Shown: positions 338 through 60,879 of the stretch, in pieces
How positions within the stretch are numbered: the stretch's first letter is position 1
How the letters are laid out: each line of letters opens with the position of its first letter
Assembly (NCBI RefSeq): GCF_900102745.1
Contig: NZ_FMZF01000001.1
Span: forward strand, 868,001-932,000
Length of the DNA: 64,000 bases
Origin: Geodermatophilus telluris
GTDB lineage: Bacteria > Actinomycetota > Actinomycetes > Mycobacteriales > Geodermatophilaceae
Direction of reading: 5' to 3'
The notes under the pieces: generated by a model
What the model was told of the DNA's origin: nothing
Databases searched by the model: none
Seen by the model: the letters and a program-made list of their open reading frames with translations, nothing else
Translations under genes and position numbers: made by a program

Positions 338-396
338 AGGACCCCCTACCCCCCACGGCTCGCAAGCTCGCGGCGGGGCCCTCCAGGGGGCCTGGA
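338..396 (+). repeat. Intergenic hairpin repeat, family A copy 1
   Basis: Begins 4 nt after the stop codon of the dehydrogenase. It reads GGACCCCCT, then CCCCCCAC, a TCGC-containing core, GGGGCCC, and AGGGGGCC; the outer ends pair imperfectly as CAGGACCCCCT against AGGGGGCCTGG. The same layout occurs at 13000, 13131, 33601, 36850 and 43421. It may act as a terminator-like structure, although no U-tract follows. Confidence 0.75.
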
Positions 397-6340: not shown

Positions 6341-6440
6341 GTGCGACGATCAGGTGACCTGGTCATCGAGCGTCCCACCCGACCGTGGGACGTCGGGTGG
6401 GACGCGCTGCGGTGCGGGAGGACGTCGGCTGCGGCGGCCC
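6341..6440. repeat. Palindromic repeat, family B copy 1
   Basis: The 246-bp gap between the GGDEF gene and the next small gene holds this element. It has a 25-bp near-palindrome centred on GGTGACC (6344-6368), then a hairpin with 14-bp perfect arms, GCGTCCCACCCGAC (6370-6383) and GTCGGGTGGGACGC (6392-6405), around the loop CGTGGGAC. It matches a second copy at 40324-40437. The rest of the gap shows only a short GC-rich hairpin near 6320-6338. Confidence 0.8.
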
Positions 6441-6523
6441 GGACGAGGCTCGGCCCCGGACCGCGGGTGCGGGCCGGGGCCGTGAGGTGGCCGGTCACCC
6501 GCTCCGGGGAGCGGGGTCCTTTC

Positions 6524-12738: not shown

Positions 12739-12999
12739 ATGCCCAGCCAGACCGTCACCGTCGGCTCCCGGGTCGGCCTGCACGCCCGCCCCGCCGCGCT
12801 CATCGCCGAGGCGGTGGGCAAGGCCGGCGTCCCGGTCACCCTGGCCACCCCCGGCGGTGCGCCGGTCGACGCCGGGTCGCCGCTGATGATCATGACCCTG
12901 GGGGCCCAGAAGGGCACCGAGGTGACCGTCACCAGCGACGACCAGTCCGTCGTCGACCAGATCGCCGGCCTGGTCGCCCAGGACCTGGACGCCGAATAA
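12739..12999 (+). CDS. ptsH: Phosphocarrier protein HPr
   Basis: An 86-residue HPr that carries phosphate from enzyme I to IIA. The active residue is His15 in VGLHARPAALI. The region around residue 46 reads DAGSPLMIMTLGAQKG; it has a Ser in the place where Gram-positive HPr is regulated by HPr kinase, but no such kinase lies in this window. The ATG has GCGAGGA upstream. It is the last gene of the regulator-fruK-fruA-ptsH operon, 56 bp after fruA, and ends with TAA, rare in this DNA. Confidence 0.96.
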   Translation: MPSQTVTVGSRVGLHARPAALIAEAVGKAGVPVTLATPGGAPVDAGSPLMIMTLGAQKGTEVTVTSDDQSVVDQIAGLVAQDLDAE

Positions 13000-13060
13000 A
13001 GGACCACCCTTCCCCCCACGCTTCGCAGGCTCAGCGCGGGACCCTGAAGGGCGGCCGTTC
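13000..13060 (+). repeat. Hairpin repeat, family A copy 2
   Basis: Starts at the base after the ptsH stop, oriented with the gene. It has GGACC, CCCCCCAC, TTCGCAGGCTCAGCGCGGGACCC, and an outer stem CACCCTTC pairing with GAAGGGCG. See the family description under the finding at 338. Confidence 0.75.
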
Positions 13061-13062
13061 CA

Positions 13063-13119
13063 GCAACGACGACGGCGCCCGTCCCCTCGGCCGGAGGGGG
13101 CGGGCGCCGTCGTCGTTGC
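13063..13119. terminator. Strong bidirectional terminator hairpin
   Basis: Perfect 19-bp arms, GCAACGACGACGGCGCCCG (13063-13081) and its complement at 13101-13119; the loop itself contains CCCCTC/GAGGGG. It lies between the convergent ptsH and SRPBCC genes. There is no U-tract, which is usual for actinobacterial terminators. Confidence 0.85.
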
Positions 13120-13130
13120 GGGATCGGCTC

Positions 13131-13182
13131 CCTCGCAGGGGCCCGGCCCGAGCTCGCGAGGGACGGGGGCGAGGGGGTCCTG
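13131..13182 (-). repeat. Hairpin repeat, family A copy 3
   Basis: On the minus strand it starts directly after the TAG of the SRPBCC gene: CAGGACCCCCTCGC, then a core with CCCTCGCGAGCTCGGGCCGGGCCC, then GCGAGGG. The outer stem pairs as CCCTCGC/GCGAGGG, so copies 2 and 3 flank the terminator between two convergent genes. Confidence 0.7.
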
Positions 13183-13647
13183 CTACTGGTCGGGGCGGGA
13201 GACGTCGCCGCGCCAGGCACCGGTCTCGCTGCCGCGGCTCTCGATGAACTCCTTGAACCGCTTGGCGTCGGCCTTGACCTGACGGTCGTCGAAGCCGAGC
13301 GCGGCGCCGGCCTTCTCGACGATCCCGGTGGGCTCCCAGTCGATCTGGATCATCACCCGGGTCTTGGTGTCGTCGAGGCGGTGGAAGGTCACCACGCCGG
13401 CGTGCTTGGCACCGCCGCTCGTGCTGGTCCAGGCCACCCGCTCCTCGGGGTGCTGCTCGGTGATCTCGGCGTCGAACTCGCGCGTGACGCCGTCGATGTT
13501 GGTGACCCAGTGGGTGCGCGTGTCGTCGAGCTGGGTGATCCGCTCGACACCACCCATGAACTGGGGGAAGGACTCGAACTGGGTCCACTGGTCGTAGGCG
13601 ACCCGGATGGGGACGTCGACGTCGACGGACTCCTGCACGCTGGCCAC
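13183..13647 (-). CDS. SRPBCC-family protein (polyketide cyclase/dehydrase type)
   Basis: A 154-residue protein of the START-like SRPBCC fold. The N-terminus VASVQESVDVDVPIRVAYDQWTQFESFPQFM and the later EERVAWTSTSGG are typical of the cyclase/dehydrase group often annotated as a coenzyme Q-binding or cyclase protein; the real ligand is generally unknown. The GTG at 13647 is preferred because GAGGAG lies just upstream. It is divergent from a flavin monooxygenase, 174 bp away, but a shared pathway is only a guess. The gene ends at TAG inside a terminator/repeat zone. Confidence 0.85.
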   Translation of the reverse strand: MASVQESVDVDVPIRVAYDQWTQFESFPQFMGGVERITQLDDTRTHWVTNIDGVTREFDAEITEQHPEERVAWTSTSGGAKHAGVVTFHRLDDTKTRVMIQIDWEPTGIVEKAGAALGFDDRQVKADAKRFKEFIESRGSETGAWRGDVSRPDQ

Positions 13648-24236: not shown

Positions 24237-24258
24237 GGTCGGCGACTCTCCTTCTCCC

Positions 24259-24386
24259 AGGCCGCCTACCGGGTTAGCTGACGGGTTCGGGCGTGGAGTC
24301 GCCCGGCGCGCACGCGCGCCACACCCCAGGACTGCGATGGGTCCCCGGCCCGGTAACCCCGCGGGGTCACCGGCTCGACGGCGTCC
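24259..24386 (-). promoter_or_regulatory. c-di-AMP (ydaO/yuaA-type) riboswitch
   Basis: On the minus strand, 23 nt upstream of the NlpC/P60 start. The hallmark is GCCCGAACCCGTCAGCTAAC (24273-24292) followed by CCGGTAGGC, the most conserved part of the ydaO aptamer. Further 5' are GGGGTTACCGGGCCGGGGAC and CCATCGCAGTCCTGGGGTG, with a variable GC stem between. Rising c-di-AMP is known to switch such genes off. Confidence 0.93.
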
Positions 24387-33546: not shown

Positions 33547-33584
33547 GGGCCCCGCCCCGGACGACGCTGTCCGGTGCGGGGCCC
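33547..33584 (-). terminator. Long terminator hairpin downstream of pckG
   Basis: GGGCCCCGC (33547-33555) pairs with GCGGGGCCC (33576-33584), and inside it CCGGAC (33557-33562) pairs with GTCCGG (33569-33574), giving a 15-bp stem broken by one C-T mismatch. With family A copy 4 beside it, it fills the 174-bp gap between pckG and the MFS gene. Confidence 0.8.
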
Positions 33585-33600
33585 TGGACCCGCGCGGGCG

Positions 33601-33660
33601 GCCCTCCTGCAGGGTCCCGCCCCGAGCGTCAGCGAGGGGTGGGGGGCAGGAGGGTCCTTC
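33601..33660 (-). repeat. Hairpin repeat, family A copy 4
   Basis: On the minus strand it begins directly after the pckG TGA: GAAGGACCC, TCCTGC, CCCCCCACCCCTCGC, a core with GCTCGGGGCGGGACCC, then GCAGGAGGG. The outer stem is perfect: CCCTCCTGC (33602-33610) pairs with GCAGGAGGG (33646-33654). Confidence 0.8.
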
Positions 33661-35475
33661 TCACGCCAGCCGGCTCTTGAGGATCTCCAGCTCGTCCCAC
33701 ATGGTGCTGGGCAGCTTGTCCCCGAACTTCTCGAACCACTCGGTGATCTGCGGGATCTCCTGGCGCCACTCGTCCTTGTCGACGGCGAGCGCCTGGCGCA
33801 CCTGGTCCTCGGTCATGTCCAGGCCCGAGACGTCGAGCGAGTCCGCCGTCGGGACGTGGCCGACCGCGGTCTCCTCGGCGGCCGCGGTGCCCTCGATGCG
33901 CTCGACGACCCACTTGAGCACCCGGCTGTTCTCACCGAAGCCCGGCCACAGGAAGCCGCCGTCCTCGTCGCGGCGGAACCAGTTCACGTAGAAGATCCGC
34001 GGCAGCTTGGTGGAGTCGTGCATCTTGCCGGTCTCGACCCAGTGGCCGAAGTAGTCGCCGGCGTTGTAGCCGATGAACGGCAGCATCGCGAACGGGTCGC
34101 GGCGGACGACGCCGACCGCGCCGGTGGCCGCCGCCGTCGTCTCCGAGGACAGCGTGGCGCCCATGAACACGCCGTGGTTCCAGTCCCGGGCCTCGGTGAC
34201 CAGCGGGATCGTGGTCTTGCGGCGGCCGCCGAAGAGGATCGCCGAGATCGGCACGCCCTTCGGGTCCTCGTACTCCGGCGCCAGGATCGGGCACTGGGTG
34301 ATCGGGGTGCAGAAGCGCGAGTTCGGGTGCGACGAGGGCTCGTCGGAGTCCGGCGTCCAGTCCTGGTGCTTCCAGCTGGTCAGGTGCGCCGGCGGCTCCT
34401 CGGTCATGCCCTCCCACCAGATGTCGCCGTCGTCGGTGAGGGCGACGTTGGTGAAGACCGAGTTGCCCTTGTCGATCGTGCGCATGGCGTTGGGGTTGGT
34501 GTCCCAGCCGGTGCCCGGGGCGACGCCGAACAGGCCGAACTCGGGGTTGAGCGCGTAGAGCCGGCCGTCCTCGCCGAAGCGCATCCAGGCGATGTCGTCG
34601 CCGAGGGTCTCGACCTTCCAGCCCGGGATGGTCGGCTCGAGCATCGCCAGGTTGGTCTTGCCGCAGGCGCTCGGGAAGGCCGCCGCGACGTAGTAGGTCT
34701 TCTGCTGGGGGCTGACCAGCTTGAGGATCAGCATGTGCTCGGCGAGCCAGCCCTCGTCGCGGGCCATCACCGAGGCGATCCGCAGCGAGTAGCACTTCTT
34801 GCCCAGCAGGGCGTTGCCGCCGTAACCCGAGCCGTAGGACCAGATGGCCCGCTCCTCGGGGAAGTGCACGATGTACTTGGTGTCGCTGCAGGGCCACGGC
34901 ACGTCCTCCTGGCCCTCCGCCAGCGGGGCGCCGAGGGAGTGCATGGCCGGCACGAACGGCCGGTCGCTGCCCATCGCCTCGAGGATGTGGCTGCCGATGC
35001 GCGCCATGACGCGCATGGAGACGACGACGTACTCCGAGTCGGTGAGCTCGACGCCGAACATCGGGTTCTCGGCCTCGACCGGGCCCATGCAGAACGGGAT
35101 GACGTACATCGTCCGGCCGCGCATGCACCCGCGGTACAGCTCGGTCATGATCGACTTCATCTCGTCGGGGGCCATCCAGTTGTTGGTGGGCCCCGCGTCG
35201 GCCTCGTCGACCGAGCAGATGAAGGTGCGGTCCTCGACGCGCGCGACGTCGCTGGGGTCGGAGGCGCACCAGAACGAGTTGGGCTTCTTCGCCAGGCGGG
35301 TGAAGGTGCCGGCGTCGACCAGCTTCTGGGTGAGCCGCTCCCACTCCTCGTCGGTGCCGTCCACCCACACCACCTGGTCCGGCTGCGTCAGCTCCGCCAT
35401 CTCGCGCACCCACGCCAGCAGGCGGGCGTGGGTGGTCGGGGCGTTGTCGAGACCGGGGGTGGCCACGGAAGTCAC
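33661..35475 (-). CDS. pckG: Phosphoenolpyruvate carboxykinase (GTP)
   Basis: A 604-residue cytosolic enzyme converting oxaloacetate and GTP to PEP and CO2. The kinase-1a loop is [13 protein letters not shown] with the reactive Cys271 and Lys273; the conserved [20 protein letters not shown] near the N-terminus and [20 protein letters not shown] near the C-terminus identify the GTP-dependent family used by actinobacteria. It permits gluconeogenesis from acetyl-CoA sources, such as the ketone-body and branched-chain routes in this window. The GTG at 35475 follows GAGGATGGAG; a promoter with an overlapping inverted repeat lies upstream. Confidence 0.97.
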
Positions 35476-35692: not shown

Positions 35693-36934
35693 GTGACCAG
35701 TCCCACACCCGCGACGCCCGCCCTGCTGACCCCGCTGACCCTCCGCGGGGTCACCCTGCCCAACCGCCTCGTCGTCGCCCCGATGTGCCAGTACTCCGTC
35801 CGCGACGGCCTGGTCGGCGACTACCACCTCGTGCACCTGGGCCGCTTCGCCCTGGGCGGCTTCGGCACCGTCGTCGTCGAGGCCACGGCGGTGACGCCGG
35901 AGGGGCGGATCAGCCACGGCGACGTCGGCCTGTGGTCCGACGGGCACGTCCCCGGGTTGGCGCGCACCGCGGAGTTCCTGCGCGCGCACGGCGCGGTCGC
36001 GGGCATCCAGCTGGCGCACGCCGGCGCCAAGGCCAGCAGCCACCGCCCGTGGGAGGGCGGGGCGGCCGTCACGCCGGAGGACGCCCGGCCGGGTGAGGCG
36101 CCGTGGCCGACCGTCTCGGCGAGCGCCGTCCCCGCCGGGCCGGGCTGGCCGGTGCCGCACGAGCTCACCGTCGCCGAGCTCGGCGAGGTGCGCGAGGCGT
36201 TCGCGGCCGCCACCCGCCGGTCGCTGGCGGCGGGCTTCGACGTCGTCGAGGTGCACGCCGCGCACGGCTACCTGCTGCACCAGTTCCTCTCGCCGCTGTC
36301 CAACCGGCGCACCGACGGCTACGGCGGCTCGCGGGAGGCACGCACGCGGTTCCCGCTCGAGGTGGTCGAGGCGGTGCGCGCCGAGTGGCCCGAGGACCGG
36401 CCGCTGTTCGTGCGCGTCTCCGCCGTCGACGGCTCCCCGGGCGGGATCACCCTCGAGGACACCGTGGCGTTCGCCGCCGAGCTGCGCGCCCGCGGCGTGG
36501 ACGTCGTCGACGTGTCCGGCGGCGGGCTGGGCGGCTGGCAGCACCCCCTGGGCTACGGCTACCAGGTCCCCTTCGCCGCCCGGGTCCGCGCGGAGGCCGA
36601 CGTCGCGGCGATGGCCGTCGGGCTGATCGTCGACCCGCACCAGGCCGAGGCCGTCGTCGCCGCGGGGCTGGCCGACCTCGTGGCGGTCGCCCGGGAGGCG
36701 CAGGAGGACCCGAACTTCGCCGTGCACGCCGCCCGCGAGCTCACCGGCCGCTACGACGCCTACCCCGTGCAGGCGGGGCCGCGGCTGGGCCGGCGGCGGG
36801 AGTTCCTCGGCATGCTGGGCCCGTGGACGGGACCCGGGCCGGTGCAGACGAAGGACCCCCGTTCCCCCCACCCTTCGCCCGCTCAGGGCGGGCCCCTGAA
36901 CGGGGGCCGGAGGAACCAGCCTGCGGCGCCGTGA
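35693..36934 (+). CDS. Old yellow enzyme family NADH:flavin oxidoreductase
   Basis: A 413-residue FMN ene-reductase of the YqjM class. Motifs: [13 protein letters not shown] with the redox-modulating Cys, [31 protein letters not shown] with the substrate His pair, and VAVGLIVDP-like phosphate loops ([18 protein letters not shown]). It reduces activated C=C bonds with NAD(P)H. The normal end should be near the EFLGMLGPW segment; the last about 28 residues ([16 protein letters not shown] onward) are read from a family A hairpin repeat. GTG start; its TGA overlaps the next GTG. Confidence 0.92.
36850..36910 (+). repeat. Hairpin repeat, family A copy 5, inside a coding region
   Basis: GAAGGACC, outer stem CCCCCGTTC (36856-36864), CCCCCCACCCTTCGCC, a CTCAGGGCGGGCCCC core, then GAACGGGGG (36898-36906), a perfect 9-bp stem. 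Unlike the other copies it is before, not after, the stop codon and is translated as the tail of the old yellow enzyme. Confidence 0.85.
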
Positions 36935-40323: not shown

Positions 40324-40437
40324 CGACGATCAGGTGACCTGATCGTCGAGCGTCCTACCCGACGTCCCACGGTCGGGGAGGACGCTGCACGGTGAGGGAG
40401 GACGCGGCGGGATCAGGTCACCTGGTCATCGACGTCG
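40324..40437. repeat. Palindromic repeat, family B copy 2
   Basis: Between the CDF and FKBP genes. It begins with a perfect 25-bp palindrome (40324-40348: 12-bp arms CGACGATCAGGT and ACCTGATCGTCG around G), then a hairpin AGCGTCCTACCCGAC (40349-40363) with GTCGGGGAGGACGCT (40371-40385) around GTCCCACG. It ends with an inverted unit GATCAGGTCACCTGG (40411-40425) that abuts the FKBP stop. The loop octamer is the reverse complement of copy 1's. Confidence 0.85.
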
Positions 40438-43400: not shown

Positions 43401-43420
43401 GCAGTCCGTCCCGCTCCTCG

Positions 43421-43477
43421 GCCCCGTCCCGGGTCCCGCCCCGAGCCTGCGAGGGGTGCGGAGGACGGGGTCCTTCG
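43421..43477 (-). repeat. Hairpin repeat, family A copy 6
   Basis: On the minus strand it directly follows the MFS stop: GAAGGACCCCGTCC, then CGCACCCCTCGCAGGCTCGG, GGCGGGACCC, GGGACGGGGCC. The outer stem CCCCGTCC (43422-43429) pairs with GGACGGGG (43463-43470). It fills the 77-bp gap between two convergent genes. Confidence 0.8.
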
Positions 43478-44758
43478 TCAGGCCGGCTCGCCGACCCGCT
43501 CGCCCTCGTCCTCGGGGAGCACGTCGAGCGGGTGGGCGAGCTCGTCGGCCGGCAGCCGCCAGGCCAGGACGGCGAGCACCGCGAGCACGGGCGGCACCAG
43601 CCCGGCGAGCAGGAACGTGCCGGTCAGGCCCACCGACTGGCTGACCGGCCCGGCCAGCGCCATCGACAGCGGCATGAACGCCAGCGAGACGAAGAAGTCC
43701 AGGCTGGACACCCGTCCCAGCAGCGCCGGTGGCACCCGCCGCTGCAGCAGCGTGCCCCAGATGACCGTGCCGGCCTCGAACGCCGCCCCGAGGAGCGCCG
43801 CCGCCGCGATCATCGGCCACAGCTGCGACGTCGCCCCGAACACGACCAGCGGCACGCAGCCGGCGCCCCACAACAGGTTCATCACCGTGAGGTAGCGGCG
43901 CGGCAGCCGCAGCGAGGCGACGACGGCCGAGCCGACCGCACCGCCGATGCCGAACGCGGCCAGCACCCAGGCGTGCTCGGCGGGACCGCCGCCGGCCCGG
44001 TCGCGCACCGCGAAGGGCACCAGCACCTCGAACGGGCCCATGATCAGCAGCACCATCAGCGAGGCGAACAGCAGCGTGGCCAGCAGCCACGGCGTCCGGA
44101 CCATGTAGGCCACGCCCTCGCGGACGTCGGCCAGCAGCCCGGGACGCTCCCCCTCCCGGCGGACCGGCAGCGTCGGCAGCGCCGCCACGCAGGCGGCCGC
44201 GGCGGCCGAGGTCAGCGCCGTCGCCAGCAGCGCCGCACCGGGTGAGAAGAGGGCCACCAGCAGGCCGCCGGCCGCGGGGCCCGCGGCCATCGCCAGCGCC
44301 GGGCGGACGACGCCCTCGAGGCCGTTGGCCGCCAGCAGCTCGCCGGGCGGGACGACCCCGGGCACCAGCGCGGAGTAGGCCGGGTAGTACAGGCCCGTCG
44401 CGATCCCGCCGGCCAGCGCCGCCGCGGCCAGCGGCCCGAGCGCGAGCGCACCGGCCAGCGACAGCAGGGCGACCGTGCCGACCGCCACCGTCTGCAGCAG
44501 CGCGACGCCGAGCAGGATCCGTCGCTGCGGCACCCGGTCGGCCAGCGCGCCGCCGAGCAGGGTGCTCGCCAGCATCCCGGCGGCCTGCAGGGCGGTGGCC
44601 AGCGACAGCGCGCCCGGCCCGCCGCCGAGCTCGACGACCTGCCAGACCAGCGCCACGGTCCACAGTCCCTGCGCGAACAGCGACAGGCCCATGGACGAGG
44701 CCAGCAGGCGGTAGTCGCGGGAACGCAGGGGCGCGAGTGCGCGCGGCAGCGTGGCCAT
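43478..44758 (-). CDS. MFS exporter
   Basis: A 426-residue transporter of the MFS_3/EntS-like group with about 12 membrane segments. The start MATLPRALAPLRSRDYRLLA and the loop LGGALADRVPQRRILL fit that group, members of which export siderophores, macrolides or other drugs. The ATG at 44758 has GGAGGGGGAG upstream and is preferred over a GTG nine codons earlier. It is divergent from a second MFS gene of the same broad group, 125 bp away. Substrate unknown. Confidence 0.87.
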   Translation of the reverse strand: MATLPRALAPLRSRDYRLLASSMGLSLFAQGLWTVALVWQVVELGGGPGALSLATALQAAGMLASTLLGGALADRVPQRRILLGVALLQTVAVGTVALLSLAGALALGPLAAAALAGGIATGLYYPAYSALVPGVVPPGELLAANGLEGVVRPALAMAAGPAAGGLLVALFSPGAALLATALTSAAAAACVAALPTLPVRREGERPGLLADVREGVAYMVRTPWLLATLLFASLMVLLIMGPFEVLVPFAVRDRAGGGPAEHAWVLAAFGIGGAVGSAVVASLRLPRRYLTVMNLLWGAGCVPLVVFGATSQLWPMIAAAALLGAAFEAGTVIWGTLLQRRVPPALLGRVSSLDFFVSLAFMPLSMALAGPVSQSVGLTGTFLLAGLVPPVLAVLAVLAWRLPADELAHPLDVLPEDEGERVGEPA

Positions 44759-44868
44759 CTCCCCCTCCGTCGTCGGCGGGCGCACCGTCGCGCCCGGACC
44801 CCATGCTCGCGGAGGGCACCGACAGGAGGCACGCGGTTATCCGGAGGAGAGCAGGAACGGTCGGCGGC

Positions 44869-60718: not shown

Positions 60719-60801
60719 GGCTCCTGAGCGACAGCGCGAAGTACCTGGCTGGCTGTCCGGCAACCTCCTCCTCCGTCTGAGGTGCTCCCAGGGGAAGAGC
60801 C
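60719..60801 (+). promoter_or_regulatory. SAM riboswitch (SAM-I/SAM-IV superclass)
   Basis: In the 203-bp gap before metY. GGCTC (60719) pairs with GAGCC (60797-60801) as P1; between are GACAGCGCGAAGTACCTGGC, TGGCTGTCCGGCAACC with the conserved CGGCAACC, and GGTGCTCCCAGGGGAAGAGC, the invariant 3' part. CTCC at 60856-60859 could mask the GAGAGGAG ribosome site at 60864-60871, pointing to translational control. Confidence 0.88.
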
Positions 60802-60879
60802 GGCCGTGCGGCGACCGCCGTGCGGCAAGGACGGAGCACCTGTGCGCCGCAGGTCCTCCGGACGAGAGGAGACGGCGCG

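Follow-up and report, generated by a model that had tools for sequence, protein, structure and literature searches.

A palindromic repeat found mainly at stop codons in Geodermatophilaceae

The window analysed here, a stretch of 64,000 nucleotides from Geodermatophilus telluris, contains six copies of a short hairpin-forming element, five of them directly 3' of a stop codon and in coding orientation. What places a hairpin at the ends of these genes, and is it there for the gene or for itself? The earlier note on this DNA favoured a role at the 3' end of the transcript (termination, RNA stability or a binding site) rather than spread. The comparisons described below make it somewhat more probable than not that the element is a RAYT-less, non-autonomous, REP-like palindromic repeat of Geodermatophilaceae that inserts or survives mainly at stops.

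The element and its family

All six copies are present at the places claimed for them, and the reported covariation is borne out. Copy 1 (335–396, + strand; 67.5 bits with the covariance model) is 3' of an SDR-type gene whose TGA ends at 334, and copy 2 (12998–13059, +; 81.6 bits) overlaps or follows the TAA (12997–12999) of the HPr gene. Copy 3 (13123–13183, −; 62.9 bits) lies 3' of the TAG of a polyketide-cyclase-type gene (13183–13647, −). Copy 4 (33597–33660, −; 78.7 bits) abuts the TGA of the PEP carboxykinase gene, pckG (33661–35466, −), and copy 6 (43416–43477, −; 63.2 bits) is 3' of the TGA of an MFS transporter gene (43478–44785, −). The exception is copy 5 (36850–36911, +; 82 bits), which lies within an FMN oxidoreductase ORF (35693–36934, +), in frame and close to its C-terminus. 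Except for that of HPr, the gene assignments are from Pfam. Copy 5 is an in-frame insertion within the ORF, since the relative G006 has no element there, yet the frame and the downstream TGA are kept; loss of a stop by mutation was rejected on the same comparison.

The unit is about 60 nt long and consists of an outer stem that is variable yet complementary, a C/G-rich inner stem and a near-invariant apex, TCGC-N(2-4)-GCTC. The outer helix is made from GG(A)CC and about 7–9 variable pairs, closed by GGCC. By eye, the consensus ends are GAAGGACC and GGCC, with neither a GTAG nor a CGTC tag. A 3' tail, GTTCCAGCACGTCACC, is found in 18 of 61 copies from the window's own genome if up to four mismatches are allowed, and two of these 18 are tandem rows.

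A seed alignment was built from 17 copies in the window and neighbouring stretches, with 90.5% of its cells paired. Both sides of a pair have changed in 37 cells, compared to a mean of 11.6 after shuffling; none of 500 shuffles scored as high, and slid pairings gave at most five such changes. The covarying outer stems described in the earlier note are thereby upheld. Single copies, by contrast, are not exceptionally stable: the six window copies folded with z-scores from −2.46 to +0.10 relative to dinucleotide shuffles, and the evidence for structure therefore comes from comparison, not from energy.

The earlier note had proposed a covariance model and a search of the genome and its relatives, and a model of this kind, R1, revealed a large family. 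The window's own genome yields at least 142 matches at E ≤ 0.01, which is a lower bound because only 150 candidates were scored. In a 464-kb sample of this genome, including the window, 28 matches reach E ≤ 1e-4 and 31 reach E ≤ 1, 22 of the 28 falling in the 400 kb outside the window; extrapolation from that 400-kb sample suggests a genomic total of roughly 260. The element is found in all 25 genomes of the genus that were searched and, with 48 candidates scored per genome, in 101 of the 112 genomes of Geodermatophilaceae, which cover 9 of the 12 genera. No match was found in 11 genomes, which comprise every one of the nine from the genera g21, g22 and g23 as well as G041 and G069, the last two having none although their genera are otherwise copy-rich; 10-mer counts in 200 kb of each of these two revealed no obvious replacement repeat at stops. 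A few genomes are copy-poor (G047 and G091 with four matches each, G057 with two). None of 16 genomes from other families of the order matched, and in a sample of the phylum, only two of 296 genomes did so: the window's own and G135, the latter with one weak match of 41.6 bits.

Rfam gave zero families on the six window copies, and around one consensus-like copy, its matches were all far below gathering scores. A literature search turned up no recognisable description of such a repeat in Geodermatophilaceae. Other structured sequences in the window include a SAM-IV riboswitch (60720–60837, +; 78.5 bits) and a c-di-AMP (ydaO) riboswitch (24249–24378, −; 53.3 bits). There is also a second palindromic repeat, CAGGTGACCTGATC, at 40331–40344 (+), 40411–40424 (−) and 6348–6364, with five matches in the window (some overlapping, at most one mismatch) against 0.06 expected. 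It recurs at L018:8183/8243, L053:5275/5335 and L164:672/732, and in several places, it forms an inverted pair with a spacing of 60–80 nt. In a few cases, a copy of the main element with no adjoining stop may be bordered by a GATCAG-like end.

Placement behind stop codons

To place the element relative to genes, 96 copies were used, 61 from the window's own genome and 35 from relatives (L052 and L166 being one G. dictyosporus site counted twice). Genes were called with a home-made finder based on codon usage, which misses some stops, such as that at L162:6343, where the TGA is correctly placed by eye. In 68 of the 96 copies (39 of 61 own, 29 of 35 from relatives), the element is in coding orientation with GGACC 0–8 nt past the end of a stop codon. 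All 39 own copies have GGACC starting 0–5 nt past the stop, at spacings of 0, 1, 2, 3, 4 and 5 nt in 3, 4, 6, 5, 16 and 5 cases, where 2.3% of copies would be expected from a random non-coding position and strand. The excess after stops and the coding-strand bias, which had been set beforehand as a test of the earlier note's idea, are thus both found. The binomial probability of 2e-48 is only indicative, since the copies are related and include two tandem rows, and roughly half were taken from stretches picked around matches.

The remaining 22 own copies are not within 8 nt of a called sense stop. One is at 16 nt, nine are at 21–400 nt, nine have no sense stop within 400 nt, two are inside predicted sense genes and one is inside an antisense gene; some of these are probably misses of the gene finder. 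Searching for truncated copies, as GGACC within 14 nt of stops, brought up many extra sites that by eye resemble unrelated sequence or ribosome-binding sites, and a few that resemble remnants.

The stops at the 68 adjoining copies are 51 TGA, 14 TAG and 3 TAA, whereas all genes called in an 864-kb sample of the window's own genome have 718 TGA, 118 TAG and 14 TAA. Stops other than TGA are thus present at 17 of 68 copies versus 132 of 850 genes (Fisher p = 0.058). Because TAG and TAA are used too and the spacing is variable, it was judged unlikely that TGA serves as a plain DNA target. Tolerance alone does not account for a precision of 0–5 nt. Either insertion is aimed at stops, or only copies at stop codons are tolerated or useful.

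A GC-rich hairpin just 3' of an ORF and in coding orientation is also what an intrinsic transcription terminator looks like, and the stems of the element are strong. However, the element has a conserved apex, lacks a U run in both directions (by eye) and has 3' flanks that are GTTCC or variable, with no T run. It also comes and goes while another hairpin stays. At pckG, 27 of the 28 genomes in the main set have a separate strong hairpin (stem of at least 9 bp) no more than 200 nt from the stop; of two further genomes, G022 has one, and the stem in G021 is just 7 bp. The hairpin picked in G011, G014 and perhaps G016 is itself derived from the element. A related hairpin follows the element in the window's own genome, G006, G005, G003, G004 and G018. 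In the window, it lies 3' of copy 4 (33547–33584, −), and similar hairpins are found in many relatives, whether or not the element is present.

The same holds at the HPr gene, where a long terminator-like hairpin (13067–13115) with a 22-position stem, one mismatch allowed, lies between copies 2 and 3, and relatives with and without the element have the same kind of hairpin. It measures 19–24 bp downstream of the gene in all three of the occupied genomes, and also in G005 and G003; in G009, G017 and G001, the best hairpin picked by script is shorter, and the long one is visible in the sequence. Judged by their form, these downstream hairpins at pckG and HPr would terminate transcription.

A terminator facing the antisense direction would fit the lower-energy hairpin on the complement strand, followed there by CCTTC and the reversed stop codon. 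The downstream neighbour is convergent for 18 of the 39 adjoining own copies, compared to 288 of all 846 genes (558 being co-directional; Fisher p = 0.12), and four copies (L190:16569, L193:4875, L198:7740 and L198:11476) span the entire gap between two convergent stops. However, 21 of the 39 copies have a co-directional neighbour. With another, longer hairpin present downstream of pckG and HPr whether the site is occupied or empty, it is quite unlikely that the element is a transcription terminator, either for its gene or for antisense transcripts. A binding or 3'-end role of some kind is possible.

Turnover between species and the origin of covariation

The pckG stop shows how variable the occupancy is. 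By eye, 29 relatives include eight with a forward element of various stem types (G003, G004, G005, G006, G011, G016, G018 and G021), one with a reverse copy (G014), three with apparent remnants (G001, G019 and G023) and 17 with none. Named relatives cover the same range. The reverse copies 3' of the pckG stop, opposite to the usual orientation, are those of Modestobacter lapidis (L060) and G014 (L158). Copy 4 itself is common to G006 and G005 (Geodermatophilus dictyosporus, whose PEP carboxykinase is the closest among the matches listed, at 96%), and many relatives lack it. At the HPr stop, the window's own genome, G006 and G023 have three different stem types, and G005, G009, G003, G017 and G001 have no copy. 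The other window sites behave likewise: that of copy 1 is without the element in G005 and G006 and has a degenerate version in G023; that of copy 3, from alignments judged by eye, has a copy with a different stem type in G001 and none in G006 and G023, where the adjoining HPr copy lies within 150 bp; and that of copy 6 is without it in G006 and G009.

Where eight genomes are syntenic, many occupied sites have about 60 nt separating the conserved flanks and most empty ones about 0–20 nt, although outliers occur. After correction by eye, only one of nine scorable own sites is occupied in G005, and two of seven in G006, one of these with a different stem type. Several "empty" sites resemble deletion scars, which, on the sequence evidence, means that loss of copies certainly occurs. 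One of these is in the window itself (6498–6521, −), a probable deletion remnant with the 5' arm and a short hairpin, where G006 and G005 have full copies at the orthologous place. Patchiness is thus partly due to loss. Gain of copies is suggested by the different stem types at one site together with near-identical dispersed copies, new insertion being inferred and not observed. No clear target-site duplication was found in the aligned empty sites, and the flanks diverge.

A second insertion into an ORF is found in G009 (L218:1223) and G023 (L211:6983), where the element follows ATGCAG directly and stays in frame with the N-terminal end of an ORF of 200 residues, whose product looks like an orotate phosphoribosyltransferase. 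The orthologue in the window's own genome has 181 residues and reads MQKGPDRD at the position of the element, which may be a scar. That genome also carries head-to-tail arrays of a 63-bp unit, at L199:10556-10807 (−; G000:C2:365556-365807) and in L193 near 2498, the unit being either the tail plus the element minus its 5' outer arm, or 3' halves plus the tail. At L194:10527 (−), the element begins within the apparent 5' arm of another, possibly as a nested insertion.

The earlier note thus stands as far as the structured family, the excess at stops and the coding bias are concerned, but its preference for a 3'-end role "rather than spread" is not supported. The unit is present or absent at orthologous sites, pckG and HPr have a separate hairpin, G041 and G069 have no match and nine dispersed own copies have a counterpart that differs at a single position.

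Close copies also show where the covariation lies. The 61 own copies have 26 types of outer arm, the commonest with ten and nine members, and 11 copies have a partner at 0–1 difference: two identical tandem units and the nine dispersed copies just mentioned. Among the 14 closest pairs (0–2 differences), three stem differences are uncompensated and none is compensated, and compensated pairs exceed the others only between copies with nine or more differences. Seven orthologous pairs from four sites yielded one convincing compensation (L218/L211) and several changes without compensation; two of the pairs involve L180:18127, and their counted compensations depend on a shifted alignment. Since the closest pairs show no compensation and orthologous copies show one convincing case beside several losses of pairing, the covariation is mainly a property of subfamilies. 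This is what would be expected if spread requires foldability, and is no proof that host genes need the structure. It follows, as a caution, that covariation between the copies of a repeat does not by itself demonstrate an RNA function in the host.

Matching stems could also arise without structural selection, through hairpin-templated template switching during replication, in which case the pairing would be evidence for neither a function nor an enzyme. According to published work, template switching can create hairpins and maintain them (PMC8794818), and the element does have many stem types with near-perfect arms. Such a process is very unlikely to be the source of the covariation, as nearly identical copies include no compensated pairs and the orthologous sites only the one convincing case among several uncompensated changes.

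The same observations bear on selection for control at the 3' end, by which the hairpin would affect ribosome release, re-initiation or mRNA decay and would be kept and spread for that effect. Placement 0–5 nt past all three kinds of stop is tighter than tolerance needs, different copies occupy the same stop codons, and REPs of E. coli within 15 nt of a stop offer a precedent (PMC12306157). Nevertheless, this explanation is unlikely in view of the patchy occupancy and scars at orthologous genes, the lack of matches in G041 and G069 despite their rich genera, the few copies inside ORFs and the uncompensated differences between very close pairs. Some effect on translation is plausible all the same, because the stop-proximal REPs of E. 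coli, those at most 15 nt from the stop, are reported to stall ribosomes (PMC12306157).

Folded strand and proposed mode of spread

Which strand of the element has been kept foldable can be read from its mismatches. At column 25/52 of the inner stem, 93 distinct copies have A.C (62), G-C (22), A-T (6), C.C (2) or G.T (1). If G.U is counted, 90 of the 93 pair on the complement versus 29 on the mRNA strand. Column 28/49 has 20 A.C or C.A and one T.G. The other stem mismatches, leaving aside 28/49 and the register-shifted column 7, are 23 A.C versus 11 G.T (p = 0.058), and the strand argument is weak outside the two columns. Each letter of the apex TCGC..GCTC is kept in 87–93 of the 93 copies. 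On the complement, it reads GAGC-NN-GCGA, which could form tandem G.A pairs on a short stem, a motif that would be stabilising.

Raw minimum free energy is lower on the complement in 90 of 93 copies. With DNA parameters, the complement is favoured in 78 of 93. However, dinucleotide z-scores average −2.40 on the complement versus −2.15, being in its favour for no more than 56 of the 93 copies, and raw energy as proof of the folded strand was rejected after this shuffle control. It seems somewhat more probable than not that foldability has been maintained on the strand complementary to the host mRNA, a confidence tempered by the shared ancestry of the copies.

A mobile repeat would account for these features in the following way. 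The unit would be copied or moved in trans by an enzyme that recognises one strand in its folded, single-stranded form, more probably the one complementary to the host mRNA, on which the recurrent A.C becomes a G.U (G.T) pair. Outer-stem covariation would then reflect subfamilies that need foldability to spread, while fixed copies decay. Insertion or survival would be concentrated in the few nucleotides past the stop, which leaves both the ORF and the downstream terminator undamaged. For the host gene, any effect would be secondary, from a stable hairpin within the footprint of the terminating ribosome.

REPs are known to be accompanied by Y1/RAYT enzymes. The RAYT/Y1 transposase family (PF01797) was found in none of 15 genomes of Geodermatophilaceae, including G083 and G090 from genera without the element, while the same search found it in five of 14 control genomes. 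Reverse transcriptases (RVT_1, PF00078) were rejected as the mobiliser: they are present in nine of 18 genomes and do not track copy number, being absent from the copy-rich G006, G042, G043 and G071 and present in the copy-poor G047. No parent transposon was found with these two enzyme families. One consensus-like copy had no match on plasmids. Viral carriage was rejected as well: six viral contigs match the 17-base core, apparently by chance, because none shows the arms of the element by eye.

The closest likeness is to the REPs and REPINs of E. coli and Pseudomonas, with their GTAG and CGTC super-families. As described in PMC3733652, PMC12306157 and PMC2817692, these are short, imperfect, extragenic palindromes of high copy number, sometimes at stops, with variable-stem families and occasional copies in ORFs. 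The at least 142 matches in the window's own genome make the element a high-copy, short extragenic palindrome in the same sense. It differs from them in having no Y1/RAYT in the 15 family genomes and no GTAG or CGTC terminal tag by eye, and in its length of about 60 nt with a conserved TCGC-NN-GCTC apex, compared to 20–40 bp for REPs (PMC3733652). It also adheres more closely to stops: 39 of 61 own copies are 0–5 nt away, whereas among the 4,072 REPs predicted in E. coli, 446 come within 15 nt of one (PMC12306157).

MITEs and stem-loop sequence families (SLS) are similarly dispersed, have an inverted-repeat structure and are present or absent at orthologous sites. The element, unlike them, has a strong preference for stops. 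No parent transposon was found with PF01797 and PF00078, and the aligned empty sites, whose flanks diverge, show no clear target-site duplication. Rickettsia palindromic elements are palindromic repeats that can insert in frame in ORFs, whereas ORF insertion is the exception here. The attC sites of integrons, with a structured bottom strand, a position just past the stop and covarying stems, resemble the element, but copies of the element are dispersed and do not form cassette arrays.

A bolder version of the mobile-repeat reading is that the palindrome is actively aimed at stops (all three codons, 0–5 nt, one prevailing orientation) by a non-RAYT enzyme acting on the folded complement. This is doubtful, although if true, it would be a stop-targeting element, having evolved a safe harbour within genomes of which about 90% is coding.

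If the mobile-repeat reading holds, an entire family of actinobacteria from soil and stone has a mobile hairpin of high copy number that is aimed at stops, apparently without Y1/RAYT. A comparison of occupied with empty orthologous gene ends would then serve as a natural experiment, showing how translation and mRNA 3' ends respond to a stop-codon hairpin.
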